From [Leptolyngbya] sp. PCC 7376 (GTDB lineage Bacteria > Cyanobacteriota > Cyanobacteriia > Cyanobacteriales > MRBY01): a stretch of 64,000 nt of DNA. The position numbers and the translations under genes are program-made. Below the pieces are notes generated by a model. That model was given only the letters and a program-made list of their open reading frames with translations. It searched no databases and had not been told where the DNA came from. Positions 17,236 through 35,194 of this stretch are shown in pieces. The stretch lies in NCBI RefSeq assembly GCF_000316605.1, contig NC_019683.1:3208036-3272035 (forward strand), written 5' to 3'. Every line of letters begins with the position of its first letter. Positions within the stretch are counted from its first letter, which is position 1.

Positions 17236-17718
17236 TTAAGCGACTTTGACATAAACTAGCTCTTCTTCAATCATTGCGGTGAATGTACCCAGCTCTTTTG
17301 AAGCAGGGCCAGAGAGCACTTCGCCACTTTCGCTAAATTTAGAGCCGTGACAAGGACAATCAAAGGATTCGCCAGCCCATGCAACAGTACAGCCTTGGTG
17401 TGTACAGAATGCATTAACAGCAATCAAAGCATCGGAAGCAGCGGGATCACGGATCACCGCAACTTGTTCGCCATTGAAGTTTTTGTTAGAAATAGACCCT
17501 TCTTCATCTAACTGCTCAACAGTACCGATCGCCGCAAAACCATCTTCGCGGGGAGTGGTATCAATCTCGACTTTTTCGCCCTCAGGGCTTTTTTCAGTTT
17601 GAGCCGCAGGGGCTGTGCTTTCTGTTTCACCACCATCAGAACAGGCGGCAATCGCCACAGGTAGAGAAGTTGCAATTGCGCCGAGTCCGACCCAGCTTAA
17701 AAATTCACGTCTTTTCAT
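17236..17718 (-). CDS. Rieske [2Fe-2S] protein, Tat-type/lipoprotein export signal
   Basis: 160 residues. The N-terminus MKRREFLSWVGLGAIATS resembles a twin-arginine signal, and it ends in a lipobox-like AIAAC (Cys ~26), so the protein is probably exported folded and may be lipid-anchored. A ~45-residue acidic/Ala/Pro linker follows. The Rieske fold has both cluster loops, CTHQGC and CPCHGS, with the disulfide Cys pair. It resembles small PetC3-like Rieske proteins more than the b6f subunit PetC. It is last in a leftward set after the ResB-like and CcsA-like genes (93-base gap), next to the multihaem cytochromes, so it may donate or accept electrons in that module (inference). A terminator follows. 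Confidence 0.9.
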   Translation of the reverse strand: MKRREFLSWVGLGAIATSLPVAIAACSDGGETESTAPAAQTEKSPEGEKVEIDTTPREDGFAAIGTVEQLDEEGSISNKNFNGEQVAVIRDPAASDALIAVNAFCTHQGCTVAWAGESFDCPCHGSKFSESGEVLSGPASKELGTFTAMIEEELVYVKVA

Positions 17719-17811
17719 GGTGTCTTTTCCTCAAGATTTGCAAATCTAAGATTAAAAAGGAGCACAGTCTTGCACCCCAATTCCAAAATTTGGTTTGTTG
17801 TCGTAGGTGAC

Positions 17812-19524
17812 TCAATTCGGGTTTTCAGCCGTGGTTAAAGCTTCTGTTTCAGAAGGTTTGAGCCAGCCTTTATGTTTGGTTGCAGTGATCAGAACTAGCA
17901 AAAGATCTAGTCCCACAACCCCGGCAATCAAAAGCTCAGAACCGCCTGTGCCAAAGCCATAACTATGCAAGCCAGTGCCTAAAACAAAGTTAACGCCATA
18001 CCAGGCCATCAAAACTGCATTAAAAGAGACAATACTGGCAACATGAACGCCAAAATCCCCGATCCAACCCACTAAACGTCCGTGGAGTGGAGCTAAGTAA
18101 CAGAGCAGTGCAATTAATGCCCAAGTTTCTTTCGGATCCCAGCCCCAAAAACGCCCCCAAGAGAAGTGCGCCCAGATGCCACCGAGAATAATGCCAGCAG
18201 TTAGCAACAGTACACCTACTTGCAAAACGCGGTAATTAAGCTGGGAAAGCATTTTTAAGCGTGGCTTGGCGCTCGGTGTGAAGAGATAATTTCCGAGGGC
18301 AACATGACCTAATCCCATCGCAAGAGCGAAGCTTGCATAACTGAGAGCGATCGTCGGGACATGAATACTCAACCAGAAGTTATCGCGCAAGACAGGTACT
18401 AGGGGCGAAATACTAGGGTCTAAAACCGCTGGCAAACTATCGGCCAATAATAAACACATCACCGACAAAGGTGCTGCCGCCAAGATGTAATAACGATTCC
18501 GGGTAAGCAGTTCAAAGGCAAGGGCGATCGCCGCAATACCGAAGCCGACCCAAACTACCGACTCATACATGTTGGTGACGGGGGGACGACCGGCAATTTG
18601 CATTCGCAGGAAAAAACCATAGGTTTGAACAGCAATACCTGTGCTAAACAGACCCATTGCACTCCAGTAAATATTCCAAGGCTTTACCCAGAGGCTAATG
18701 AGCATTGCGATAAAGGCTAAACCATAAAGCTGCCAAGCCTTCGCAAAGGGATGAAAATGGTTAAAGTGAGTTTCCCGCGCCAGAACAAAATCGCTTGGAT
18801 AAATCTCTGGGCTTAGGCTACGTAACCCAGCTTTCAGACTACCTGTGATATCAGATAAAGCTGAGAGATGATCAAGACCACCATTGAAAACAGCCTGCTG
18901 AATCATCGCAAAATTAGCGACAAGCGGTGCAAATTCTTCAACATCGTAAAGTTCATCTGCATTATTAAGGCCTGCCCATTTCCCTTTGATATCGGTGGGA
19001 TGAGGCACAATCGGTAAGCCTTGATCGCCGACAGAACTGTAGAGGAGATTTAAGCGATCTTCGATGGTTAAGGCTTCCCGTTCATCACGATTCAAATCTT
19101 GCTCATTAAATTGTTTTTCATGGGCGAGATCCACTACTGCCGCCAACTTTTTATTGGTCATCAGCTCTTGGAACGAAAAATGCTTTTGCTCCAGCTCCAG
19201 CTCCGTTAATTCTTTCAGCGGACGGTAACTGACTAAAACAAACGGCTCTTCATTCCAGTTACGGGTGTTAAACCACATTTCCAGATAGGTGCTGAGATAA
19301 TCCTCTTTTTCACCATTAACAGTTTGATAACTCGTCGCACCGTGGATTTTGGCAACGGTTTCCTTGGCAACAGTATCAAGGGGCTTTTTACGGCCATCGA
19401 GCTGCACTGTTAATGTCCGTAATGACTCCAGTCCATCGGGCTGAAACTGCGTAAAGGGAAAAAACAGCAGCACGCAGCCGAGGCACAGACCAATAATAAA
19501 TTTGATCACGTTTGGGGCTTTCAT
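17812..19524 (-). CDS. Long CcsA-like cytochrome c haem-lyase subunit
   Basis: 570 residues, much longer than the ~330-residue housekeeping cyanobacterial CcsA. The C-terminal ~300 residues are the CcsA membrane domain with the WWD haem-handling motif (WGRFWGWDPKETWALIALL) and flanking His in WLSIHVPTIALSYA and GLHSYGFG. The N-terminal ~250 residues contain one membrane segment and a periplasmic domain with LDGRKKPLDTVAKETVAKI, a motif I associate with fused CcsBA/NrfI proteins. It lies 74 bases downstream of the ResB-like gene. Together they look like a split CcsBA synthetase that attaches haem to apocytochromes in the periplasm or lumen, probably those encoded divergently at 23-25 kb. Confidence 0.88.
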   Translation of the reverse strand: MKAPNVIKFIIGLCLGCVLLFFPFTQFQPDGLESLRTLTVQLDGRKKPLDTVAKETVAKIHGATSYQTVNGEKEDYLSTYLEMWFNTRNWNEEPFVLVSYRPLKELTELELEQKHFSFQELMTNKKLAAVVDLAHEKQFNEQDLNRDEREALTIEDRLNLLYSSVGDQGLPIVPHPTDIKGKWAGLNNADELYDVEEFAPLVANFAMIQQAVFNGGLDHLSALSDITGSLKAGLRSLSPEIYPSDFVLARETHFNHFHPFAKAWQLYGLAFIAMLISLWVKPWNIYWSAMGLFSTGIAVQTYGFFLRMQIAGRPPVTNMYESVVWVGFGIAAIALAFELLTRNRYYILAAAPLSVMCLLLADSLPAVLDPSISPLVPVLRDNFWLSIHVPTIALSYASFALAMGLGHVALGNYLFTPSAKPRLKMLSQLNYRVLQVGVLLLTAGIILGGIWAHFSWGRFWGWDPKETWALIALLCYLAPLHGRLVGWIGDFGVHVASIVSFNAVLMAWYGVNFVLGTGLHSYGFGTGGSELLIAGVVGLDLLLVLITATKHKGWLKPSETEALTTAENPN

Positions 19525-19598
19525 GGTTTAACCGATTCGTGGGTGGAATGTATAGGGAAATAAATCTGGATAGTTCTATTATTCGGCGATCGCCGCGT

Positions 19599-21389
19599 TT
19601 AGGATGATTTTTTTAATGTTAGGGCATCAAAAATTGGAATATGAGGCTTCACTGCTTCCTCTTCCTCGGGTAAATCGGGCAAGGACTTAGAACGGAATGT
19701 TTTGGCGATCGCCCGTCCATAGAACATGGAGACAATCCCGCCTGTGACCATTACGGAGCCTAGCCAAGTTAAGCCTGTGACCCACCAAGGTTCGCGCTTT
19801 AGCTGGAGGGTAGATTGCTTGAGATCGCCAGGATTCCAGGAGGCCTGTGCTAATTTCCAACCCATAAACCAAGTGGGGTGATTCATCCAAACTTTACGCT
19901 TAGAGGCTGAATCAGTTTCGGCGTCGAAGAGCGTCAATTTACTAGTCCACATCGCCACAGACTCGCTACCTTCATTACGATCCACGATGAAATTATTTAG
20001 CTTGACGTAGAAAGGCAATTGCAAAATCTTTGGTGTAAAGGCGGCAAAATAATCACCATCGGCGGTTTTGAGATCCGTCGGTTCACTCCAAGGTAACCAA
20101 AAATCTTGACCATCGGGTGTTGCCACATGGAGGGCTGGGGAACCAGATTGTGCCATCATGCCCTGTTTTACCGGAGCGACAGGAACAACTTGTCGCTGCA
20201 CAGTAGCCTTATCTAAACGATCCACAAGGGAAATTTTAAAGTCTGCCCAACCGGGAGTGACGGATTGGCCAGCGGTAAACTCGCCTGATTTAAACCCTTT
20301 CGAAGATGCCGCTGCGTAGAAAAGCTGATGATTGGGGGCTTCGACAATGCGGAAATAGTCGGTTTGCGGCAGTTTGGGGGGAGCGTAGTTTACAGCTAGT
20401 TCAATCTCATCGCCAGAACGGATTGGCTCAAAGGTTGGCTGGGCAAAGACAAACCACTTCGCTTGGCGATCGCCCTGCTTGAGATCGAGTTGTAGTGCGG
20501 GATTATTAAATTGAGTCGATGCAGACGTCGGTTTGTTATTCGCATCGAGGCGAAAATCCGCCCAAACGCTCGTCACTTCCGCTTTAATGCCGTTAGATAA
20601 ATTCAGAGGTTGATTGATTGAATCCCGGACGTCGAAAGATTTACCGTCGATTTCCAGTAAGCCAAACTCATGTGTTTCACTCGTGGGCTCTTTTAATAAC
20701 TCTGTGAGAGCTTGTTCATCGGTCGCCTTCGCAATTTCGAGGTGCGCAGGGCCAATGTCAGTCTGTTGATAACCAAACGGGGCGATCGCCAACCATCTTT
20801 CCACAGACTGACCCATGCGATCGCTCTGGAGCTGGACTTTTACCGCCAGATTATCAATCTGGCCACCATCCTGAAATTGCACAGAAGTTACAGCATTATC
20901 CGTGTAGCCGATGAGTGAAAGATCACCAATCTTCTCCGGATAAACCGAGCCATCCTCCCGCACAAAAATATCGCGCTGGGTTTGCGTACCATCGGGATTC
21001 GCAACTTCAAGCAACTCACCTTCGACACGAATTTGGTTAATTGCGCCGCCGTCAGTACGCACAAGCAGCATCCCTTCTGTACTCAAATGAATCACTGCCG
21101 CCGAGCCCGCAATGATTACGACCAAGCCCCAGTGGGTAATGGCGAAACCAACTTTTCTAGCACCACGCCACGGATAACGACTCAATGTCGAAATCCCAAG
21201 GTTCACAGCGAGCAAAAACATTAACGCCCCAAACCAAGGACTTTTATAAATTAAATTTTGTACCGTTGGTGTCCCAACATTTGATTCATAAAATGTCGCA
21301 CCAATCAAAATCAGGGCGATCGTTCCAAGCAAAGGTACAGCTAATTTAATTGAACCGAGAAAGCGAAAAATTTTGGAGTCTATACCCAT
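19599..21389 (-). CDS. ResB/Ccs1-like cytochrome c biogenesis protein, long form
   Basis: 596 residues. Membrane segments at about 10-30, 47-68 and 82-100, a large (~430-residue) periplasmic domain and a last membrane segment near 550. The N-terminal block (ATFYESNVGTPTVQNLIY, then ITHWGLVVIIAGSAAVIHLS) is the ResB signature, with the transmembrane His. ResB/CcsB carries haem and partners CcsA in system II maturation. This form seems more like ResB parts of CcsBA in non-photosynthetic bacteria than like plastid-type Ccs1. First gene of the leftward set, divergent from the globin gene across a 636-base spacer. Confidence 0.87.
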   Translation of the reverse strand: MGIDSKIFRFLGSIKLAVPLLGTIALILIGATFYESNVGTPTVQNLIYKSPWFGALMFLLAVNLGISTLSRYPWRGARKVGFAITHWGLVVIIAGSAAVIHLSTEGMLLVRTDGGAINQIRVEGELLEVANPDGTQTQRDIFVREDGSVYPEKIGDLSLIGYTDNAVTSVQFQDGGQIDNLAVKVQLQSDRMGQSVERWLAIAPFGYQQTDIGPAHLEIAKATDEQALTELLKEPTSETHEFGLLEIDGKSFDVRDSINQPLNLSNGIKAEVTSVWADFRLDANNKPTSASTQFNNPALQLDLKQGDRQAKWFVFAQPTFEPIRSGDEIELAVNYAPPKLPQTDYFRIVEAPNHQLFYAAASSKGFKSGEFTAGQSVTPGWADFKISLVDRLDKATVQRQVVPVAPVKQGMMAQSGSPALHVATPDGQDFWLPWSEPTDLKTADGDYFAAFTPKILQLPFYVKLNNFIVDRNEGSESVAMWTSKLTLFDAETDSASKRKVWMNHPTWFMGWKLAQASWNPGDLKQSTLQLKREPWWVTGLTWLGSVMVTGGIVSMFYGRAIAKTFRSKSLPDLPEEEEAVKPHIPIFDALTLKKSS

Positions 21390-22025
21390 ACTTACGTAGG
21401 ACGGAAATCTAGTGATTAAACAATCAATGATTTAATCAATCTAGTTAGTAAAATCCGTCACAAAACACAAAACACTATTCAAAAAATGCAATCTCAAGCT
21501 CCTCTTAAACTGTATCCAAAGCAACAGTTGCCACCTATTTGATCAATTCTTTTTTTGCTATTAGAGCGTATTCAGAGTTATCTATTGAGAAATATTCTTA
21601 TATTGATTGGCCGATAAAACAGACAGTCTGAAAGTGCCGAATTTCTTGGCAGAGAAAGTTCTTGAGATTCTCAAAGCAAAAATATACCGTTACTTAAGTC
21701 ATGATGGAAGCTCTAATACAGACTTCCTTATTGAAAGTCTATATGAATAAAATGAAGTAATGCAGAAAAAGCATTGACTGATTTATTTTCTTTTCTTATT
21801 TGTAGTCTTTTTGACAAAAGTCTTGAAGCCGCCCACTTAGTTTGAGTATTCAAGTTGAATAAGTTGAATTTGGCTTTAACTTAACTTCGTGAATTCACCT
21901 TTTTTGTTGCTCACTAAAAATATTAACTGCAATTAATTAATCGTGTTTACACAACAAAATAAGCATAAGTTCTTGCCTAAGTTCACTTTACTAAATGGTC
22001 TGCTTTAAGAGAGGAAAAACCGTCG
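21390..22025. promoter_or_regulatory. 636-base divergent regulatory region of the cytochrome/globin cluster
   Basis: AT-rich spacer with no frame of note; it must carry promoters for both the leftward ResB-like set and the rightward globin-cytochrome set. Candidate operators: an odd 13-base palindrome TTGAGATTCTCAA at 21662-21674; TTGAGTATTCAA at 21842-21853 overlapping TTCAAGTTGAA at 21849-21859, followed by another AAGTTGAA (21861-21868). None matches NtcA (GTA-N8-TAC) exactly, and the half-site spacing differs from FNR/CRP sites. The globin start is preceded by GAGAGGAAAA, a ribosome site. The regulator is unknown. Confidence 0.45.
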
Positions 22026-23045
22026 ATGTCTTCTGACGCATCTAATGATACTGGTCTACAAGTTGAGCTTTTAGAATCAAGTTTTGAGCAAGTAAAGCCC
22101 AAAGCCAACGAATTTGCGAGTTCTTTTTACGAAAACCTTTTTACCGACTACCCTGCAGCTAAGCCTCTTTTTGAGAATACCGATGTCAAAGAGCAGAGCA
22201 AGAAGCTTTTAGCTTCATTAGTTTTTGTTGTTGAGAATTTAAAAAATCCAGAAGCTCTCACTGATGCGTTAAAAGGCTTAGGTGCAAGGCACGTTAAGTA
22301 TGGTGCGCTACCTGAGCACTATCCCCTTGTTGGTAATACACTCCTCAAAACTTTTGAGCAATTTTTAGGTGATGCCTGGACAGAGCCAGTAAAAGGCGCT
22401 TGGGTCAATGCTTATGGTGTGATCACAGAAGTGATGCTCGATGGCGCTGATTATTCCGAAGGCGAAGTCGCGCTTGAGACGCCTGACACTTCTGTGGATG
22501 AAGCGACTGGTTTGCAAGTTGGTTTACTTGAATCTAGTTTTGAGAAAGTAAAGCCCAAGGCGGAAGAATTTGCTTCTAGTTTTTACGAAAATCTTTTCAC
22601 TGACTACCCTGCAGCAAAACCTCTATTTGCAAATACTGACGTTAAGGAGCAGAGCAAGAAGCTTTTAGCATCCTTGGTTTTTGTTGTTGAAAATTTGAAA
22701 AAGCCCGGTGCGTTAACTGATGCGCTCAAGGGTCTTGGGGCACGCCATGTGAAGTATGGTGCTTTACCTGAGCACTATCCTTTAGTCGGTAATACGCTCT
22801 TAAAAACGTTTGAGCAATATTTAGACGCGGATTGGACACCGGATGTAAAAGCAGCATGGGTCAAAGCTTATGGGCTAATCACAGAAGTAATGCTCGATGG
22901 TGCTGATTATTCTCAGGATGAGGTTGCTCTCGACCCAGCTCCTGCGGTTGAAGCTCCTGATAGCAATATTGGATCTGGTGCTGTGCCTTTTGTTGTTGGT
23001 GGTAGTGCCATTACACTCATCCTCTACCTCTTGATTTTGCTTTAA
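22026..23045 (+). CDS. Tandem two-domain globin with C-terminal membrane anchor
   Basis: 339 residues. Two nearly identical globin domains (about residues 11-145 and 162-297), offset by 152 residues. Each has the bacterial-haemoglobin key residues: B10 Tyr (Tyr35, Tyr187, in SSFYENLF), E7 Gln (Gln57, Gln209, in VKEQSKKL) and proximal F8 His (His89, His241, in GARHVKYG). After a short acidic/Pro linker the chain ends in a single hydrophobic segment (about 318-339), a tail anchor. No signal peptide, so the globins should face the cytosol. Tyr/Gln distal pockets bind O2 tightly and support NO dioxygenation when a reductase is available; no flavin domain is fused. First gene of the rightward set, 33 bases before a multihaem cytochrome. 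Confidence 0.9.
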   Translation: MSSDASNDTGLQVELLESSFEQVKPKANEFASSFYENLFTDYPAAKPLFENTDVKEQSKKLLASLVFVVENLKNPEALTDALKGLGARHVKYGALPEHYPLVGNTLLKTFEQFLGDAWTEPVKGAWVNAYGVITEVMLDGADYSEGEVALETPDTSVDEATGLQVGLLESSFEKVKPKAEEFASSFYENLFTDYPAAKPLFANTDVKEQSKKLLASLVFVVENLKKPGALTDALKGLGARHVKYGALPEHYPLVGNTLLKTFEQYLDADWTPDVKAAWVKAYGLITEVMLDGADYSQDEVALDPAPAVEAPDSNIGSGAVPFVVGGSAITLILYLLILL

Positions 23046-23078
23046 GGCTGAATCGGGTAAAGGTAAAGGATTTAGGAG

Positions 23079-23726
23079 ATGGCACAGGGCGTGAAGAAAA
23101 GGTTTGGTTGGCGATCGCTGATGAGTTTGAAGGTTATAACCATTGCAACTTGTCTAGCTTTAATTGGCTGGTTTGCAGCGGCATTTGCCCTCAACGCGAA
23201 GCAAGTTTTCATACCAGGGGAAACCTCTGTTGGTCACTACTTATTTGAAGCGTCTTGTGCCTCTTGTCATGAGGGTTTTAAGCCTGTGACAAATGAAACA
23301 TGTACCCGGTGTCACGAAGCGGAACTAGAACAGGATATCCACGGTACTAAGAAATTCCGGGATCCGCGCTGGGCAGGTGACCTCGAAAAAATCGAGGCTC
23401 TAACCTGTACCACCTGCCATGCAGAACATGTCCATATGTTTGATCGGGGTGTGAACCTCCAGCCAGATCTTTGTATGGCTTGCCATGAAGGAATTATTAA
23501 TGGCGACCTCAAGAGTCATGATGGCTTTACACCGGATGGTTGCTGGACGGCAGGTTGCCATAACTATCACGACCATAGGACGATATCCACTGGATTTTTG
23601 CGGCAAAACATGGGTCAACCGCCAATGTTACCGGTGCAGCGCGTACCAGATCACTCCGTTGATTGGACTCTTGATACCGCGCCAAAGCCTGACCTCAGCA
23701 AAGAATTTCTAGGAGGTGCGTCATGA
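23079..23726 (+). CDS. Membrane-anchored pentahaem cytochrome c with one CX4CH site
   Basis: 215 residues. One N-terminal membrane segment (about residues 18-38) places the rest outside the cytosol. Haem sites: CXXCH at 60-64 (CASCH), 75-79 (CTRCH), 110-114 (CTTCH), 132-136 (CMACH), and a wider CX4CH at 155-161 (CWTAGCH) followed by NYHDHR. CX4CH is known from class III cytochromes c3. The architecture is that of NapC/NrfH-like or c3-like quinol-linked carriers, though not clearly homologous by eye. Its stop overlaps the next gene's start (ATGA), so the two are translationally coupled. Probably matured by the divergent ResB/CcsA pair (inference). Confidence 0.88.
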   Translation: MAQGVKKRFGWRSLMSLKVITIATCLALIGWFAAAFALNAKQVFIPGETSVGHYLFEASCASCHEGFKPVTNETCTRCHEAELEQDIHGTKKFRDPRWAGDLEKIEALTCTTCHAEHVHMFDRGVNLQPDLCMACHEGIINGDLKSHDGFTPDGCWTAGCHNYHDHRTISTGFLRQNMGQPPMLPVQRVPDHSVDWTLDTAPKPDLSKEFLGGAS

Positions 23727-24496
23727 AGTTAATTATTGTTTGTCTTTTAACTATCGCCCTCTGGTTCGGTTGCGGTAGCCCGGCGATCGCCGCCACCCAA
23801 GAAGACATTGATCTCAGTACCCAACTTTGGGAATCGAGTCTCCACGCTATTAACGATGTGAACTGTGCCAGTTGTCATCAGGACGAAGAGACAAAGGAGT
23901 TTGTCGCACAGCCCAAAGCCAGTTGCCGAAGTTGTCATGAGGATTCAGTTGATACCTTTCTCCTTGGGAAACATGGTATTCGTCTACTAGAAGGCGAATC
24001 AGCATTAAACCCAACAATGGCGAGGTTACCCATGCATAAGGAAGCCGCCAATCTCCAGATGGGTTGTGCTACCTGCCATGATGCTCACTCTGCCAACACG
24101 ATTCCTGCTGCCGTAGACTCCTGTCTTACGTGCCACGCCGATAACCATTCTCTCAACTACAAAAATTCCCGCCACGCAGAACTGTTTGATGCAGATCGCA
24201 ATTTACCGCGCCCTTCTGCAAATTCAGTTAGTTGTTCCACTTGCCATATGGCTCGCCATGAAAAAAAAGTTGGCGATCGCACCACAGCATTCGTGAACCA
24301 CAACAACACCTATAACCTGTTACCGCGCGATCGCATGGTCGGTGAAGTTTGTATCAACTGCCACGGCGTGGAATATAGCTACAACAGTATTTTTGATGAC
24401 GAGCTTGTGGAGGCGAATTTCGATGCACCGCCTACCCTCGAAATGCAGACATTTGACTTGATGCGCGCTTCAGAAAAGCGACGTTCAGGAAACTAG
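23723..24496 (+). CDS. Periplasmic/lumenal hexahaem cytochrome c
   Basis: 257 residues. A signal peptide ends at the AIAAT site (~residue 24). Six CXXCH sites: 48-52, 68-72, 115-119, 134-138, 171-175 and 210-214. Extra His that could be distal ligands occur in LLGKHGIRLL, MHKEAA, NSRHAELF and VNHNNTY. The spacing, with a CSTCHMAR block followed by a HNNTYNLLPRDRM segment and CINCHG, recalls multihaem proteins of the cytochrome c554/hydroxylamine-oxidoreductase type, but it has six haems instead of eight and no visible active-site Tyr cross-link motif. I treat it as an electron-transfer protein or possible reductase of unknown substrate. Coupled by a 4-base overlap to the pentahaem gene. Confidence 0.87.
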   Translation: MKLIIVCLLTIALWFGCGSPAIAATQEDIDLSTQLWESSLHAINDVNCASCHQDEETKEFVAQPKASCRSCHEDSVDTFLLGKHGIRLLEGESALNPTMARLPMHKEAANLQMGCATCHDAHSANTIPAAVDSCLTCHADNHSLNYKNSRHAELFDADRNLPRPSANSVSCSTCHMARHEKKVGDRTTAFVNHNNTYNLLPRDRMVGEVCINCHGVEYSYNSIFDDELVEANFDAPPTLEMQTFDLMRASEKRRSGN

Positions 24497-24603
24497 TCAT
24501 CAACACCAGAGTTCGCTTCTACGAACGTTTTCATCTCAGTTCCTCCTCTGTGCTTCCGCACAATACAACTACATTTCCAACACTTAAGGAGATCCCAACA
24601 ACT

Positions 24604-25257
24604 ATGGCATTCATAGAAAATTGGCTAACAACGATCCGGACTCGGACAGTTGCATTTATCGCCATCATTCTCGCTGTGGCAGTGACCGCCGTATCCTGTG
24701 CTGGCGGAACCCCCGAAGCCTCGGCTCCCGCAGGCATTGACCCTTCCAAGGTTGCAGACTATATCCATACAGTTCTTGAAGCTGACCGTACAGCTTATAC
24801 CAAGCATGTTATTAGTCGTGCAAAAGTCCTTGAAGGTAAGGAAAAAGAAGCAGGCGTACTAGACGTTGAAGCAACTGAAGGTTGGCAACAGACTGATGGT
24901 ATTCCTCTACCCGCTCAAATGTTCCGCCTAGGTTCCGAAATCGCAAACGAAGCTGGTTACTTCACTTACAACCTCATCTCTGAGTGGTATATCAACGATA
25001 ACCATGCACCCAAAGGCGATTTTGAAGAAACAGCCCTCGCAACAATGACTGAAACTGGCGAAGCAGTAAAGGATTATCAAGAAATTGGTGGCCAGAAATA
25101 CTACTCCGCGATGTATCCCGACATTGCAGTTGCTGAAGCTTGTGCAACCTGTCACAACACTCACCCTGTCCACCTTGAACGTTATCCCGACAAGGTATTC
25201 GAAGTGAACGATGTAATGGGCGGCGTCGTTATCAATATCCCTTTAGGTGATGCCTAA
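24604..25257 (+). CDS. DUF3365 (Tll0287-like) monohaem c-type lipoprotein
   Basis: 217 residues from the ATG at 24604, chosen because AAGGAG lies 12 bases upstream; a start at 24550 would precede the signal sequence. A hydrophobic N-terminus ends in a lipobox-like AVSCAGG (Cys32). The rest is the DUF3365/Tll0287-type domain with conserved QMFRLGSEIANE and one CATCH haem site (180-184) followed by THPVH. Tll0287 of Thermosynechococcus is a PAS-like fold with one covalent haem; such domains also serve as sensors. Here it is in line with the multihaem cytochromes and could be a carrier or a ligand-sensing subunit. Confidence 0.88.
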   Translation: MAFIENWLTTIRTRTVAFIAIILAVAVTAVSCAGGTPEASAPAGIDPSKVADYIHTVLEADRTAYTKHVISRAKVLEGKEKEAGVLDVEATEGWQQTDGIPLPAQMFRLGSEIANEAGYFTYNLISEWYINDNHAPKGDFEETALATMTETGEAVKDYQEIGGQKYYSAMYPDIAVAEACATCHNTHPVHLERYPDKVFEVNDVMGGVVINIPLGDA

Positions 25258-25265
25258 AAAGTAAA

Positions 25266-25293
25266 CCCTTGACTATCTGACAATAATCAAGGG
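25266..25293 (+). other. Stem-loop between the DUF3365 and cytochrome b genes
   Basis: CCCTTGA ... TCAAGGG, seven perfect pairs with a 14-base loop that can extend by ATA pairing. It is nine bases after a stop codon but is not followed by a T run, so it looks more like an mRNA-stability or processing element than a terminator. Confidence 0.5.
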
Positions 25294-25349
25294 CTGATGG
25301 TAATGCCGGGAAGTTCAGTACAACAAATACCCTTTCCGGCAACTCTTTT

Positions 25350-26063
25350 TTGACTATAACAAAGCTCATGGGTAGCTCTTTTCGTAACCAAGATAATGCG
25401 AACTCTGAATCGATGTTGACATCTGACTCTATAGATACGCCTAAGCGCCTGCCAAAACGACCGAATAAATTACAGCCTACTTTCAAGGTGCTGATCGGCC
25501 TGACTTTTCTGACCGCTTTTCTGTTATTGCCATTTGTGTTTAGTGGTAGCTATCTCGATATGTTGCGGGCTAATGCAGTGGAGCTGTATGGTTTGCTACG
25601 CGGAGAACTTTTCAAGCAAGTAACAGGCTATGTTGGTCTGGTTTTTTCGTTATTTGAACTGATTTTGGTGGCCAGAAAACGGGGCCGTAGCTGGTTCGTA
25701 AAGATCAAACTACCTGGCTCAATGAATTTTTGGCGTAGTACTCACATTTTCGCTGGGGTCGGCATGCTGGCAATGATCGGTATTCATACGCTGGGTGCCA
25801 CAGGTCTGAATTTTAATGCAGTCTTTCTCTGGGTCTTTTTCGCGGTGACCTTGACGGCAGTGATGGGTGTTGCAGCTGAAACGGGTGTGCTGGAGTCGCC
25901 TCGCCGTCAGTTTGGTAAGTTACCGGGCATGAGTAAGGCGATGAATAAGGGTTTTATGATTCGCCATCTCCGCTTGATTTGGCTAAATAGTCACATCTTT
26001 TTCGTCAGTATTTTCTTCGTAATGTTAGTGATGCACATCGCGCTGGTTTATTACTATCAATAA
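25350..26063 (+). CDS. Membrane cytochrome b-like protein, probable two haems
   Basis: 237 residues. A polar ~45-residue N-terminus is followed by four or five membrane segments (about 47-65, 90-107, 131-150, 157-175, 213-235). Two histidine pairs, His132/His146 and His215/His229, have the same H-x13-H spacing inside membrane segments. This is the classical arrangement for two b haems held between helices. No family was firmly recognised; it resembles small b561/b6-like quinol-handling subunits. In this cluster it is the best candidate for passing electrons between the quinone pool and the periplasmic cytochromes (inference). It follows the stem-loop at 25266-25293. Confidence 0.8.
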   Translation: MTITKLMGSSFRNQDNANSESMLTSDSIDTPKRLPKRPNKLQPTFKVLIGLTFLTAFLLLPFVFSGSYLDMLRANAVELYGLLRGELFKQVTGYVGLVFSLFELILVARKRGRSWFVKIKLPGSMNFWRSTHIFAGVGMLAMIGIHTLGATGLNFNAVFLWVFFAVTLTAVMGVAAETGVLESPRRQFGKLPGMSKAMNKGFMIRHLRLIWLNSHIFFVSIFFVMLVMHIALVYYYQ

Positions 26064-26108
26064 TTGGGTTAAGATTTGTTACATGCTTTGAGGTAAGGAG
26101 TATCTATT

Positions 26109-26576
26109 TTGTTGAAGGGCAGTTTTAAACAAAATTTTGGGGCGATCGCCGTGGCATTAATTGCCATTTTTATGGGAGCCACCTTTTTATTGACTCGTCC
26201 TGTACAGGGGACCCAAACGCTGTCAACGGTGTCTGGGCTAATGAGTTTACAGACTGCTGCGGCTGGTGCGATGCCCTACAGTGAGGCGATCGCCAACCAG
26301 AAGCCCACTTTGATCGAGTTTTACGCAGATTGGTGTACAACTTGTCAGACAATGGCTCCGACCCTCGCTAAAGCAAATGAGCGTTTCGCATCGGATGTGA
26401 ATTTTGTAATGCTAAATATTGATGAACCCCAGTGGCAGTCAGAAATTGCGACATATAAAGTGAGTGGTGTACCCCATTTTGTTTTGCTTGAAGAAGATCA
26501 GACTCTCGTCGATAGCTTCATTGGAAAAATTCCGTTTCAAATCCTGTCCGATCGCCTGACCAGCCTCGTAGGCTGA
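26109..26576 (+). CDS. Membrane-tethered thioredoxin-like protein (TxlA/HCF164-like)
   Basis: 155 residues. An N-terminal membrane segment (about residues 10-27) precedes a thioredoxin domain with FYADWCTTCQTMAPTLAKA, a CTTC redox motif, and the cis-Pro loop SGVPHFVLL. The domain would face the lumen/periplasm. Its relatives TxlA and HCF164 keep apocytochrome thiols reduced for haem attachment; a CcdA partner is not in this window. The start is a TTG (26109, or 26112) because AAGGAG lies just upstream and no ATG precedes the membrane segment. Its place in the cluster completes a maturation set with the ResB-like and CcsA-like genes. Confidence 0.88.
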   Translation: MLKGSFKQNFGAIAVALIAIFMGATFLLTRPVQGTQTLSTVSGLMSLQTAAAGAMPYSEAIANQKPTLIEFYADWCTTCQTMAPTLAKANERFASDVNFVMLNIDEPQWQSEIATYKVSGVPHFVLLEEDQTLVDSFIGKIPFQILSDRLTSLVG

Positions 26577-26619
26577 GCACAGTTTTTTGTCAAAGATTGA
26601 TTATTACTGAGGAAAAAAG

Positions 26620-26856
26620 ATGAGACACGCTAGCGCAATGACGATCCTGAAATATTTTTTGCAGCTCTTAGAAGTTATGGGACAGATTTCAGAATTTCTA
26701 GAGTTGTTGAGTACTCCAATCGGCCTAGCAGGAATGGTTTGTCTCACAAGCTACGAAAGTTTGATTCTATTTGGTTGTGATACTGCAAACTCGATTGTGT
26801 TGGCGGCGGTGGTCACATTAACGTTTCACATTGCATCTAATCGCCCCAATTTTTAA
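26620..26856 (+). CDS. Small membrane protein of unknown function
   Basis: 78 residues, two hydrophobic stretches (about 35-55 and 58-72), preceded by an amphipathic N-terminal helix. A GAGGAAAAAAG ribosome site lies just upstream of the ATG, which is the main reason to believe it is translated. It follows the thioredoxin gene by 43 bases on the same strand. No family recognised, and composition alone does not prove it real. Confidence 0.5.
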   Translation: MRHASAMTILKYFLQLLEVMGQISEFLELLSTPIGLAGMVCLTSYESLILFGCDTANSIVLAAVVTLTFHIASNRPNF

Positions 26857-26912
26857 AATTAAAGACCTCCCTTAAAAAATAACTATCGTTTTGATGCGTT
26901 TCGCAGAAGCAT

Positions 26913-27833
26913 ATGAAAATTCAGCAACAGATTGGTTTGATGATGCTTGGTGGTCTGTTGGCGATCGCCCCAATGGGATGTTCATTACGGAGTACAGAGT
27001 CTCAGGAAGTACCCGAACTCCCCCAGATGCCGACCCAATCGATTGAGCCTTTGGCGGCCGCAGATGTTGTTTTTTTGGGAGAACTTCATGATAGTGAGCA
27101 GGATCATGAAGCCCAGCTAGAAATTATCAAAGCTCTTTATGAGCGGAACCCAAATTTAGCCATCGGTATGGAAATGTTCCAGCGCCCGTATCAGGAGGTG
27201 CTAAATCGCTATATTGCTGGCGAGATTAATGAAGCTGAATTTGTTGAGCAAAGTGAATATGAAAAGTTATGGGGCTTTCCGTGGGAGCTTTACGCCCCGA
27301 TTATGCGGTTCGCCCAGGAAAATAAAATTCCTGTCCTTGCACTGAACGCGCCAGGTGAAGTCGTTAGTCAAGTGGCTCGCGAAGGTTTAGAATCTCTCAG
27401 CGCGGAGGATATGATCTATATTCCACCAATTAGTGAGCTTGACCTCAGCAACACCAACTACCGCAATTTTGTGCAAGGTGCTTTCGGTGCCCATGGTCAG
27501 CATGGCAATTTTAATTTTGATAATTTCTTTGCAGCTCAGGTGATTTGGGATGAAACGATGGCCACGGCGATCGCCGAGTTCCGGACAGTCAATCCAGAAA
27601 CCCAGGTTGTCGTGCTCGCAGGACAAGGTCACGTGATTTATGGCTATGGCATCCCTGACCGCGTAGAACGTCGTTTAGGAGCTGAGCTAAAGACCCAAAC
27701 GGTTCTACTAAATCCAGTGCCAGAATTCACCGTCTATGGTCAGGCGATCGCCGATATGTTTTGGTGGAGCGTTGCCCCAGAACCGGAAACTGAAACTGAA
27801 GCAACCCCAACAGAGGATGAAGCGGCAAACTAA
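26913..27833 (+). CDS. ChaN-family lipoprotein
   Basis: 306 residues. Signal peptide with lipobox (IAPMGCSLR, Cys ~23). The ChaN/Tiki-like fold is marked by VVFLGELHDSEQDHEAQL, AIGMEMFQRPYQEVLNRYI and the late VVVLAGQGHVIYGYGIPDRV motif. ChaN of Campylobacter binds haem cofacially, and the family is linked with iron uptake; others in the superfamily are metalloproteases. Beside so many haem proteins a haem-handling role is plausible but unproven. The C-terminus is Glu/Thr-rich. Its stop overlaps by four bases with the stop of the convergent pentapeptide-repeat gene. Confidence 0.87.
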   Translation: MKIQQQIGLMMLGGLLAIAPMGCSLRSTESQEVPELPQMPTQSIEPLAAADVVFLGELHDSEQDHEAQLEIIKALYERNPNLAIGMEMFQRPYQEVLNRYIAGEINEAEFVEQSEYEKLWGFPWELYAPIMRFAQENKIPVLALNAPGEVVSQVAREGLESLSAEDMIYIPPISELDLSNTNYRNFVQGAFGAHGQHGNFNFDNFFAAQVIWDETMATAIAEFRTVNPETQVVVLAGQGHVIYGYGIPDRVERRLGAELKTQTVLLNPVPEFTVYGQAIADMFWWSVAPEPETETEATPTEDEAAN

Positions 27834-28753
27834 GCCACATTTAAAGCACCATTTTGCTTAAGAAAGTTTTTTTGTTCAGCCGTTAACCCTGTCACATCAC
27901 CAAAAATAGCCCCTTCTAAGCGGCAGTTGTCAAAACAAGACCCCTCTAAATTGGACTTAAAAAAAACAGCACTGCGTAAATCGGCACCACTAAAATCAAT
28001 ATCAGTCAGAGTGGCATATTCGAGGGAAGCACTAAACAGCGAGGCATTACGAAAGGTTGCCCCAGTAATAGTTGAACGCCAAAAATTCGCGAGTTCTAAT
28101 TGAGCATTATCAAAACAAGTGTCGGTGAAAGTCCCTTCATGGAAGACCGTATTAATACCATTAACTTGAGTGAGATTCGCTTTTGTGAAATTTGCTTCGG
28201 TAAAATCTCCCTGCTCTAAATCTGCGGAGATAAATGTGGCCTCAGTAAAGTTTGTGTTGTGACAATGGCTACGGCTGAGATTGCTTTTATTTAAATTGGC
28301 GCTGGTGAAATCAGCTTTTTGAGCTTGGATTTTAACAAGATTTGCTCGTTCAAATTGAGCTTGGCTCGCCTTCACTTCGCTAAAGTTACCGCGTTCGAAA
28401 TTCCCTCCTCGCCCCATACTTTGGGATAACGTTGCACCCTGTAGATTTACGCCAGCAGCCTTTACTTGCTGGAGGTTTGCTTCTGTAAAATCGGCTTGGG
28501 TAAAGATACTCCCTTCGAGGTGAGCTTCAGTGAGATTGCACTGCTTGAGCTGCGCCAAAATCAGGGTTGCCTTCGCAAAATTAGTGCCGACACAAGAGGC
28601 CTCTGTCAAGTTTGTACGGCGAAGATAGGCTCCTGTAAAATCGCCACAGTCGAGAGTTTTCCCGCTGAGATCAAGGGCGCTGAGTTCGCTATTGACGAGA
28701 GGTTCATCGGCTTGGATTTTTGCGAGTACTTCAGCAGCAGTCAATTGAGCCAT
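27830..28753 (-). CDS. Pentapeptide-repeat protein
   Basis: 307 residues. After ~25 residues nearly the whole chain is A(D/N)LXX repeats, e.g. ADFTEANLQQVKAAGVNLQG, forming a right-handed quadrilateral beta-helix of about 12 coils. The ends are a short helical cap MAQLTAAEVLAKIQADEP and a C-terminal VTGLTAEQKNFLKQNGAL. Cyanobacteria have many such proteins and most lack known roles. No signal peptide, so cytosolic. Overlaps the convergent ChaN gene by four bases. Confidence 0.93.
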   Translation of the reverse strand: MAQLTAAEVLAKIQADEPLVNSELSALDLSGKTLDCGDFTGAYLRRTNLTEASCVGTNFAKATLILAQLKQCNLTEAHLEGSIFTQADFTEANLQQVKAAGVNLQGATLSQSMGRGGNFERGNFSEVKASQAQFERANLVKIQAQKADFTSANLNKSNLSRSHCHNTNFTEATFISADLEQGDFTEANFTKANLTQVNGINTVFHEGTFTDTCFDNAQLELANFWRSTITGATFRNASLFSASLEYATLTDIDFSGADLRSAVFFKSNLEGSCFDNCRLEGAIFGDVTGLTAEQKNFLKQNGALNVA

Positions 28754-33640: not shown

Positions 33641-35194
33641 CTAAGCCTTTGGCGTTGCCCCAAACTGCTCAACTAAAATGCCTTTTACCTTTTCCTTCAG
33701 TGTTTCACCACAAGGGACTTTCTTCTCTACCATCGAACCGAGACTGGCGCCCTTACCGACAGTACCACCAGAATAAAGATTGACCGCCTCAACAATCTTG
33801 CCATCAACCTTGGCCTTCGCACCAAGCATTCCCAGATCACCCACTTGTGCTTGACCACAGGAGTTCGGGCAACCAGTCCAGTGCATTCTGACTCGTTGGG
33901 GAATATCCAACTCTGCATCAAGTTCCCGCGCTAGAGCCAAACCCTGCTCCTTCGTTTCGATAAGCGCAAAATTGCAATAACGATTACCTGTACAGGACAC
34001 AAAAGAACGAACAAGCGTAGAAGGATTCGTCGAAAATTTCTCTAGTAATGGCTCTTTGAGGAAGGTGTCAACGTTCTCATTTTTAACATGGGGAATAATA
34101 AAATTCTCTTCAACCGTGGCACGAATTTCACCTGTACCATAAGTTTCAGCGAGGCGAGCTACCTCGAACATATCTTCAGCAGTCAATCGACCAGCCGGAA
34201 CGTGTAGGCCGATGTAGCTATATCCTTCTTGCTTTTGGGGATAAACACCAACATGGTCACGCTTTTCCATGGTGAATGCATCTTCAGGAGCAGCTTCCGC
34301 AAAAGTCAAACCAGTTTCTTCTTCGAGTTTGGCGCGGAATTTTTCAACGCCCCAAGCTTCAACGAGCCATAAAACACGGGCTTTTGCACGATTACCACGT
34401 AAGCCTTCCTCTGCACCATAACGGGAATAGAGAGCAACGATGCCACGGCTCACTGCGAGAACTTCTTTTTCTGCTGGGGGAACCCACACATTAATCGGAA
34501 TACCTTCTGCAATTCTCTGGGCTGAGAAATAACCACCGACGAGGACATTAAAGCCAAATTCACCGTCCTTAAATGCGGGAACGTAGGCAATGTCGTTAAT
34601 TTCAACGTGGGAAGAGTTATCGGGTGCTCCTTCAACACAGATGTTGAATTTACGAGGTAAGTCGCTAAATTCAGGACTACCTTCACCGCCATTGGTGATC
34701 ATCTCTTGGAGCTTATCGGCTAACTCACGGGTATCAAAATATTCTTCGGGGTCAATGCCAGAAACAGGGGAACCTGTGATGTTACGGATATTGTCGTGGC
34801 CAGACTGAATACTTGTCAGGTCTGCATCATTAAATTTCTGAAAAATATCAGGGACATCTTCAAGGCGAATCCCTCGTAGTTGTAGGTTTTGGCGGGTCGT
34901 AATGTCTGCGCTACCATCTTCGCCATAACGTTTGACAACTTCGGCAAGAACGCGCATTTTCTCGCTGGTTAAAATGCCATTGGGTGTTCGCATCCGCAGC
35001 ATAAATTTGCCAGGGGTGACAGGGCGGTGGAACAAGCCTAAAAATTTGAGACGGATAATTAGGTCATCTTTGTCCATTGCTTCCCAACCGGACTGAGCAA
35101 ACTGCTCGATTTCGTCTTTGATCGCTAAGCCTGGTTTTTCAATTTTGGCTTTTTCAATCTTGGTGAGTTTGACCTTTTTGGGTGCGTCAGTCAT
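33641..35194 (-). CDS. nirA: Ferredoxin-nitrite reductase NirA
   Basis: 517 residues. It reduces nitrite to ammonium using six ferredoxin electrons. The sirohaem/[4Fe-4S] ligands are in SCTGNRYCNFALIETK (CX5C) and HWTGCPNSCGQAQVGDLGM (CX3C). The two sirohaem-binding ferredoxin-like half domains are intact, e.g. RNITGSPVSGIDPEEYFDTR. An NtcA site with a matching -10 box lies 77 to 118 bases before the ATG, so nitrogen limitation should activate it. Nitrate-uptake genes, often downstream, are not here; the next gene is convergent. Confidence 0.97.
   Translation of the reverse strand: MTDAPKKVKLTKIEKAKIEKPGLAIKDEIEQFAQSGWEAMDKDDLIIRLKFLGLFHRPVTPGKFMLRMRTPNGILTSEKMRVLAEVVKRYGEDGSADITTRQNLQLRGIRLEDVPDIFQKFNDADLTSIQSGHDNIRNITGSPVSGIDPEEYFDTRELADKLQEMITNGGEGSPEFSDLPRKFNICVEGAPDNSSHVEINDIAYVPAFKDGEFGFNVLVGGYFSAQRIAEGIPINVWVPPAEKEVLAVSRGIVALYSRYGAEEGLRGNRAKARVLWLVEAWGVEKFRAKLEEETGLTFAEAAPEDAFTMEKRDHVGVYPQKQEGYSYIGLHVPAGRLTAEDMFEVARLAETYGTGEIRATVEENFIIPHVKNENVDTFLKEPLLEKFSTNPSTLVRSFVSCTGNRYCNFALIETKEQGLALARELDAELDIPQRVRMHWTGCPNSCGQAQVGDLGMLGAKAKVDGKIVEAVNLYSGGTVGKGASLGSMVEKKVPCGETLKEKVKGILVEQFGATPKA

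Follow-up and report, generated by a model that had tools for sequence, protein, structure and literature searches.

The DNA analysed here, called the window, is a 64,000-nucleotide (nt) stretch of [Leptolyngbya] sp. PCC 7376 (NC_019683.1, positions 3,208,036 to 3,272,035), whose genome is a single contig of 5,125,950 bases. Within it lies a cluster of electron-transfer, globin and haem-attachment genes, arranged as two divergent sets that are separated by ~636 base pairs (bp). A first-pass annotation, made from the sequence alone, had described this gene content and arrangement; the families it assigned were borne out, and all of the genes it reported lie where it had placed them. Our analysis adds a CX4CH haem site, an NtcA-type promoter and a pentapeptide-repeat neighbour. 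The features are listed below in window positions.

17236..17718, minus strand: Rieske [2Fe-2S] protein with a Tat-type RR motif and a lipobox Cys (Pfam Rieske, 7e-14)
17812..19524, minus strand: CcsA2, a CcsA-like haem lyase half of the CcsBA type (Pfam Cytochrom_C_asm; alignment to CcsBA 7s9y)
19599..21389, minus strand: ResB2, a divergent ResB, N-terminal half of a CcsBA-type synthase (Pfam ResB; 7s9y)
21802..21843, plus strand: putative NtcA-type promoter, GTA-N8-GAC, 22 nt, TAGTTT as TAN3T -10 box (motif with one mismatch)
22026..23045, plus strand: tandem globin of two domains with a C-terminal tail anchor of a single transmembrane segment (Pfam Globin, 2e-41, two stretches)
23079..23726, plus strand: pentahaem c cytochrome with an N-terminal membrane anchor (four CXXCH and one CX4CH; Pfam multihaem c families)
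23723..24496, plus strand: hexahaem c cytochrome with a signal peptide (six CXXCH and six further conserved His)
24550..25257, plus strand: Tll0287-like (DUF3365, sCache_heme) monohaem lipoprotein (Pfam PF11845, 9.8e-20; alignment)
25350..26063, plus strand: integral diheme b cytochrome, whose true start may lie downstream (H132-x13-H146, H215-x13-H229)
26109..26576, plus strand: membrane-anchored thioredoxin, WCTTC (Pfam Thioredoxin, 2.9e-19)
26620..26856, plus strand: small membrane protein of 78 amino acids (aa) (no Pfam match)
26913..27833, plus strand: ChaN-type haem-binding lipoprotein, accessory (Pfam PF04187, Cofac_haem_bdg, 8.3e-73)
27830..28753, minus strand: pentapeptide-repeat protein, a recurrent neighbour (Pfam)

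An Rfam scan of positions 21300-22100 matched nothing.

The cluster recurs as a unit. Besides the window we collected 59 loci, of which 46, with at least 450 bases before and 3,000 bases after the pentahaem gene, were kept as assessable; 28 loci that could be followed for 8 kb or more in each direction were treated as fully visible. L009 and L010, whose contigs equal those of L038 and L054 in length, were taken as duplicates of these and excluded from the alignment, neighbour, globin, promoter and gene-order counts, and open reading frames (ORFs) shorter than 60% of the query were dropped from the residue counts. The globin, pentahaem, hexahaem, Tll0287-like and cytochrome b genes follow one another in this order on one strand in all 46 assessable loci, so the coherent unit proposed in the first-pass annotation stands and a lack of co-occurrence is excluded. 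The accessory genes are less constant among the 28 fully visible loci: thioredoxin is present in 24, ResB2 with CcsA2 in 22, the Rieske protein in 20, the small protein in 12 and ChaN in eight, and the pentapeptide-repeat protein in 22, a count that may include unrelated members of this common family. Beyond the cluster, a neighbour comparison made after filtering shadow ORFs found no gene family in more than five neighbourhoods, and the unit therefore seems to end here. Sequence distances of six cluster genes correlate with r values of 0.80-0.91 (30 loci, without species-tree control). We regard it as highly probable that the cluster is one functional electron-transfer unit.

The cluster was also expected to be unusual among cyanobacteria, and it is: the hexahaem protein occurs in 4 of 386 sampled cyanobacterial genomes, including that of the window. 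Scanning a species-genome collection with the pentahaem alignment returned 58 loci, all cyanobacterial by their record titles, by way of a short peptide pattern that distant relatives elsewhere could escape. The taxa include Leptolyngbya, Acaryochloris, Moorena, Symploca, Xenococcus, Prochloron, Roseofilum, Geitlerinema, Hyella, Spirulina and others, many of which we take to be marine mat, reef or symbiotic organisms. The pentahaem protein had no match in a plasmid collection, and the hexahaem protein had no relative among viral contigs. From the 60 cluster-bearing loci, 36 genomes entered a search for CcsA2, which was found in 33; the three without it are, by title, metagenome assemblies. The cluster is real, conserved and lineage-restricted, and combines electron-transfer and globin genes with a CcsBA-type haem lyase of its own and an NtcA-type promoter.

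Two further genomes preserve the cluster in decay. In the 386-genome sample of the phylum, the CcsA2-specific N-terminal part gave six strong matches and one borderline match (E 7.2e-5, 25% identity), the strong ones being the four cluster genomes and two remnants. In the first remnant (L089, 12794-13164), from a genus mate, an intact orphan CcsA2 and a partial cytochrome b, whose similarity begins at residue 152, lie ~110 bases apart, and the thioredoxin, small protein, ChaN and pentapeptide-repeat genes are retained; ResB2, globin, pentahaem, hexahaem, Tll0287-like and Rieske genes were not found in the 19.9 kb examined. In the second (L090, 8639-17871), ResB2 is open, CcsA2 has an internal stop, and a 177-aa cytochrome b ORF, its start cut off, abuts an ORF that we labelled transposase-like; two further transposase families are present, and globin, pentahaem, hexahaem and Tll0287-like genes were not found in the 19.9 kb examined. 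Each remnant thus has one half of the maturation pair absent or interrupted, and searches of both whole genomes found neither the hexahaem nor the pentahaem protein. Because these two genomes hold only decayed remnants, the cluster appears to have been lost in some lineages. As a separate observation, a ferredoxin-nitrite reductase gene, nirA, lies ~5 kb from the cluster in the window (33641-35194, minus strand; NF007125, 807.6 bits), and a NirA-similar ORF lies near the first remnant (L089, 4187-5740); this proximity may be coincidence, since nirA was not recognised among the families common to at least three loci.

The cluster carries maturation genes of its own, as the first-pass annotation had recognised, and they belong to System II of the CcsBA type, with ResB/CcsB and CcsA halves, conserved His residues and a tryptophan-rich segment. 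ResB2 and CcsA2 correspond to the two halves of the fused CcsBA 7s9y: ResB2 aligns with the N-terminal half (E 9.5e-14), and residues 36-547 of CcsA2, which has a ~250-aa N-terminal extension, align with residues 406-925 (E 1.2e-45). H388, H407, H453 and H520 of CcsA2 are kept in 32 of 32 sequences, as are H101 (35/35) and H504 (34/34) of ResB2; the canonical CcsB equivalog TIGR03144 reached 158.8 bits, under its curated cut-off of 187.6. The window genome also encodes a canonical ResB and a canonical 339-aa CcsA elsewhere, beside which ResB2 and CcsA2, as judged from sequence, are a second synthase set. The membrane-anchored thioredoxin, with both Cys kept in 40 of 40 sequences, is the probable apocytochrome thiol reductant. 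Dedicated haem lyases of this type are known mainly from epsilonproteobacteria. The arrangement is reminiscent of Wolinella NrfI and CcsA1, in which a second synthase accompanies the general one and a client has an unconventional haem motif, here CX4CH; the specificities of these isoenzymes are treated in PMC12285233. It differs from CcsBA, NrfI and CcsA1 in that the synthase is split into two proteins, belongs to an oxygenic phototroph and lies beside globin genes.

The c-type haem motifs number 5+6+1, as first counted, with the correction that one pentahaem site is CX4CH rather than CXXCH. This site (C155-W-T-A-G-C-H) accompanies four CXXCH motifs and is present in 58 of 58 pentahaem sequences, in which the spare His that are invariant number six, one more than the haems. 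In the hexahaem protein, six CXXCH are found in 59 of 59 sequences, and the spare conserved His equal the haems in number, at six (H41 in 58/58, H193 in 58/59 and four others in 59/59), and CXXCK is absent from its alignment; its AlphaFold model is too poor to use (predicted local distance difference test score (pLDDT) 54.6). Because a distal His is available for each hexahaem haem and six are spare in the pentahaem protein, both look from their sequences like bis-His relays, and not like nitrite- or hydroxylamine-type enzymes. The combination of membrane-anchored and soluble multihaem c cytochromes is shared with NrfHA, HAO and extracellular electron transfer systems. It departs from these in the possible distal His of every hexahaem haem and in the NrfA and HAO families, which all fell below cut-off, and the shared neighbours, beyond which the genomes were not searched, yielded no recognisable outer-membrane conduit.

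The Rieske protein keeps both ligand boxes and the disulphide Cys in 27 of 27 sequences, in agreement with the Rieske centre described at first. The monohaem lipoprotein has one CXXCH in 57 of 57 sequences and matches PF11845 at 71.9 bits (cut-off 24.1), which likens it to Tll0287 and other DUF3365 stand-alone sCache_heme proteins, a group assigned redox-like roles (PMC12889525). Unlike Tll0287, it is a lipoprotein. Its only conserved Cys residues are those of the lipobox and the haem motif, so it apparently does without the Cys axial ligand of Tll0287 and, as far as sequence can tell, haem ligation probably differs; PDB sequence searches did not return 5B82.

The predicted route across the membrane is the diheme cytochrome b. 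Both of its H-x13-H pairs, which had been picked out in the window, are kept in 54 of 54 sequences (H132-x13-H146 and H215-x13-H229). Its AlphaFold model (mean pLDDT 81.2) has long helices at 86-110, 125-148, 155-182 and 200-235, after shorter N-terminal ones, and in this model one His of each pair would lie near the presumed cytosolic loops, which are charged +6 and +5.5, and the other near the opposite face, such that two haems could span the membrane. No known family accounts for the protein: Pfam gave only a sub-threshold DUF4405, Foldseek returned nothing with E up to 0.001, no sequence family, those of the bc1/b6 core and cytochrome b561 included, rose above cut-off, and the structural Z scores were of a size that unrelated helical bundles also reach (12.2 for talin).

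The globins vary in architecture and are nearly constant in their pockets. Among 56 ORFs upstream of the pentahaem gene, counting the window, 45 are tail-anchored and have one to five domains: 27 have two domains, 11 one, five three, one four and one five. One further ORF is short and spurious. Over 103 domains (those below 125 residues were dropped), F8 His and CD1 Phe are invariant (the former 103/103), B10 is Tyr in 99 and E7 is Gln in 101; these helix labels are our own assumed assignments. Both window domains carry all four residues, in agreement with the two haem pockets first described. The nearest solved globins in the PDB are 3s1i (the best, E 1.6e-28), 3ubc and 3wfw, which we take to be Hell's Gate globins. 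The tail anchor and the missing signal peptide predict a cytosolic location, as had been proposed, and the domains are acidic, with a median charge of -7. In fold and in the B10 Tyr/E7 Gln pocket, with F8 His, they belong to the same globin family as flavohaemoglobin, Hell's Gate globin I, Vitreoscilla haemoglobin and the SyNOS globin domain. They differ from flavohaemoglobin and single-domain globins in being tandem, tail-anchored and linked to a transmembrane haem chain, and in lacking the fused FAD/NAD reductase domain of the flavohaemoglobin-type nitric oxide (NO) dioxygenases: the match to flavohaemoglobin family NF009805 is confined to the globin part and reaches 152.5 bits, where the cut-off is 432. 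A general concerted evolution of the tandem domains was considered and dropped, with 9 of 34 genes having their own domains closer to each other than to any other gene's.

Additional globins were noted in some genomes. Six loci have a second small globin after cytochrome b (L008, 6831-7361; L019, L021, L042, L047 and L067), in which B10 Tyr is replaced by His at L008, L019, L021 and L067. The window genome has a further single-domain globin gene, divergent from that of a Crp-like regulator that would bind cyclic nucleotide monophosphates (L093, 1426-1881 and 484-1173); the helix-turn-helix score of this regulator is sub-threshold.

The region upstream of the globin gene points to nitrogen control. 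In class II NtcA promoters, a GTAN8TAC site centred at -41.5 is followed by a TAN3T -10 box (PMC3898017), and a site so centred implies a distance of ~22 nt between the two. In the 400 bp that precede the globin gene, 32 of 50 loci have GTAN8TAC, compared with a mean of 2.7 and a maximum of 8 in 100 dinucleotide shuffles, and other spacers of 4-12 give 0-4. GTAN8TAC precedes flanking ORFs of at least 200 aa in 18 of 204 cases and pentapeptide ORFs in 14 of 49, and is uneven inside the cluster (12/57 hexahaem, 7/56 Tll0287-like, 0/53 cytochrome b and 0/31 CcsA2 upstream regions). The exact site with TAN3T at exactly 22 nt is found in 16 of 50 loci (0.10 in shuffles), at 21-24 nt in 23 (0.22) and, with one mismatch allowed, in 40 (7.0, maximum 14). 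A looser control is weaker: TAN3T lies at 18-28 nt in 27 of 40 site-bearing regions, compared with 15.4 (maximum 24) when 34 nt are shuffled. When upstream regions were grouped by similarity, the full exact element was present in the first member of 15 of 29 groups, against 0.5 in shuffles.

At the level of the family, then, the element is that of a class II NtcA promoter, with the window copy one mismatch from GTAN8TAC, and the cluster is apparently under the control of NtcA through this putative promoter. FNR-, CRP-, NnrR- and RpaB-type boxes were rejected in its favour; only the NnrR-like TTGN8CAA was raised, and mildly (13/50 versus 5.9). The first-pass annotation had favoured nitrogen-oxide or oxygen handling in dark anoxia. 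The promoter lends independent support to its nitrogen link. Dark anoxia is unsupported: of the 50 upstream regions, one has an FNR-type box, compared with 0.3 in shuffles.

These components suggest a mechanism, to which as a whole we assign a probability of roughly one in three: a nitrogen-controlled transmembrane haem wire, equipped with its own haem-attachment machine, that re-reduces tethered globins for NO dioxygenation. NtcA would raise expression under a shortage of combined nitrogen or where nitrogen is available only in oxidised form. ResB2/CcsA2 and the membrane thioredoxin would attach haem to the c-type sites, and the hexahaem, pentahaem and Tll0287-like proteins would make up a periplasmic or lumenal relay, from which the diheme cytochrome b would take electrons through the membrane to the haem on its cytosolic side. 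There, the acidic globin string, held at the membrane by its tether, would come into contact with the positive loops of cytochrome b and be re-reduced, and the ferrous-oxy globins would turn NO into nitrate, by which nitrogen would be recovered and the cell protected. We prefer such a wire because the multihaem cytochromes look like relays, the haem pair may span the membrane, and the acidic globin domains and positive cytochrome b loops fit docking. NO dioxygenation is the likeliest chemistry for such globins: haemoglobins that work together with their native electron donors serve as NO dioxygenases (PMC3820574), and nitrogen recovery is plausible because the globin domain of a cyanobacterial NO synthase is discussed as a possible converter of NO to nitrate in PMC6104048. 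The broader picture, in which strings of one to five globins on the cytosolic face are run as an NO- or O2-converting enzyme by a nitrogen-switched membrane machine with a dedicated b/c haem wire and a private CcsBA-type lyase, is tentative.

Several observations weigh against this mechanism, whose weakest points are the final NO dioxygenation, which way the electrons flow, what first donates them and where the Rieske protein fits in. Ten of the 56 upstream globin ORFs have one domain and no anchor, some one-domain ORFs being truncated by contig ends, and the proximal-side Glu that is important in flavohaemoglobins seems to be absent from the cluster globins. The positive loops follow equally from the positive-inside rule. 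The window NtcA site is mismatched and alone would be weak, site and box together are missing from 10 of 50 loci even if one mismatch is tolerated, and nitrogen control does not single out NO because NtcA also governs NO-unrelated genes. The analysis brought to light no source of NO, no site for an NO-responsive regulator and no activity that reduces the globin, and twelve c haems far exceed the needs of metglobin reduction.

The same promoter would also suit an electron overflow valve. Here, nitrogen shortage would remove the sink of nitrate and nitrite reduction, cytochrome b would oxidise plastoquinol, the multihaem relay would hand electrons to a periplasmic or external acceptor, and the globins would buffer O2. 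A diheme b with a membrane-anchored multihaem c cytochrome is a layout known from quinol-oxidising modules, and the Rieske gene is linked in 20 of the 28 fully visible loci. Such a valve nevertheless leaves the globin as first gene in every assessable locus unexplained, its quinone site is not demonstrable, and the shared neighbours included no recognisable outer-membrane conduit, porin or terminal reductase; we consider it possible, if doubtful.

Rather unlikely, in our estimate, is a role in O2 handling, in which the globin string would store or scavenge O2 and the haem chain would reduce it or pass it to an oxidase, protecting, for example, nitrogen fixation. The O2-type pocket and the variable number of domains, which suggests capacity, fit this idea, as does the distribution of nifD, found above cut-off in 15 of the 30 cluster-bearing genomes searched and in 60 of the 386 sampled cyanobacteria (73 at E up to 1e-100, interrupted genes taken in), an excess that is confounded by, and may reflect, genome size. 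However, the cluster has no oxidase, and nifD above cut-off is missing from the window genome and from half of those 30 genomes, on which grounds an obligate tie to nitrogen fixation was rejected.

Less probable still is that one multihaem protein is a terminal enzyme, that is, a periplasmic nitrite, hydroxylamine or metal reductase: the hexahaem protein is weakly similar to an HAO-like protein (E 7.6e-4) and resembles decahaem families below their cut-offs, whereas each of its haems can have a distal His and no CXXCK is present. Finally, the idea of unrelated genes that are neighbours by chance could draw on the ChaN, small, pentapeptide, Rieske, thioredoxin and ResB2/CcsA2 genes, which are not within view at every locus, and is already contradicted by the invariant core order, by the co-distribution of CcsA2 with the cytochromes and by the want of any other family common to more than five neighbourhoods.

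Among the papers that searches of an open-access library listed, most subscription papers being outside it, we found neither a cluster of this kind nor a characterised cyanobacterial pathway that covers its genes. Such dense multihaem chains are rare among the sampled oxygenic phototrophs (4/386). This cluster is conserved across distant cyanobacteria and, on the evidence of its promoter sequences, seems tied to nitrogen status. It provides a naturally occurring example of a System II haem lyase that is presumably dedicated, exists alongside the general one and has a CX4CH client, and a testable entry to the handling of NO, O2 or excess electrons in such cyanobacteria.

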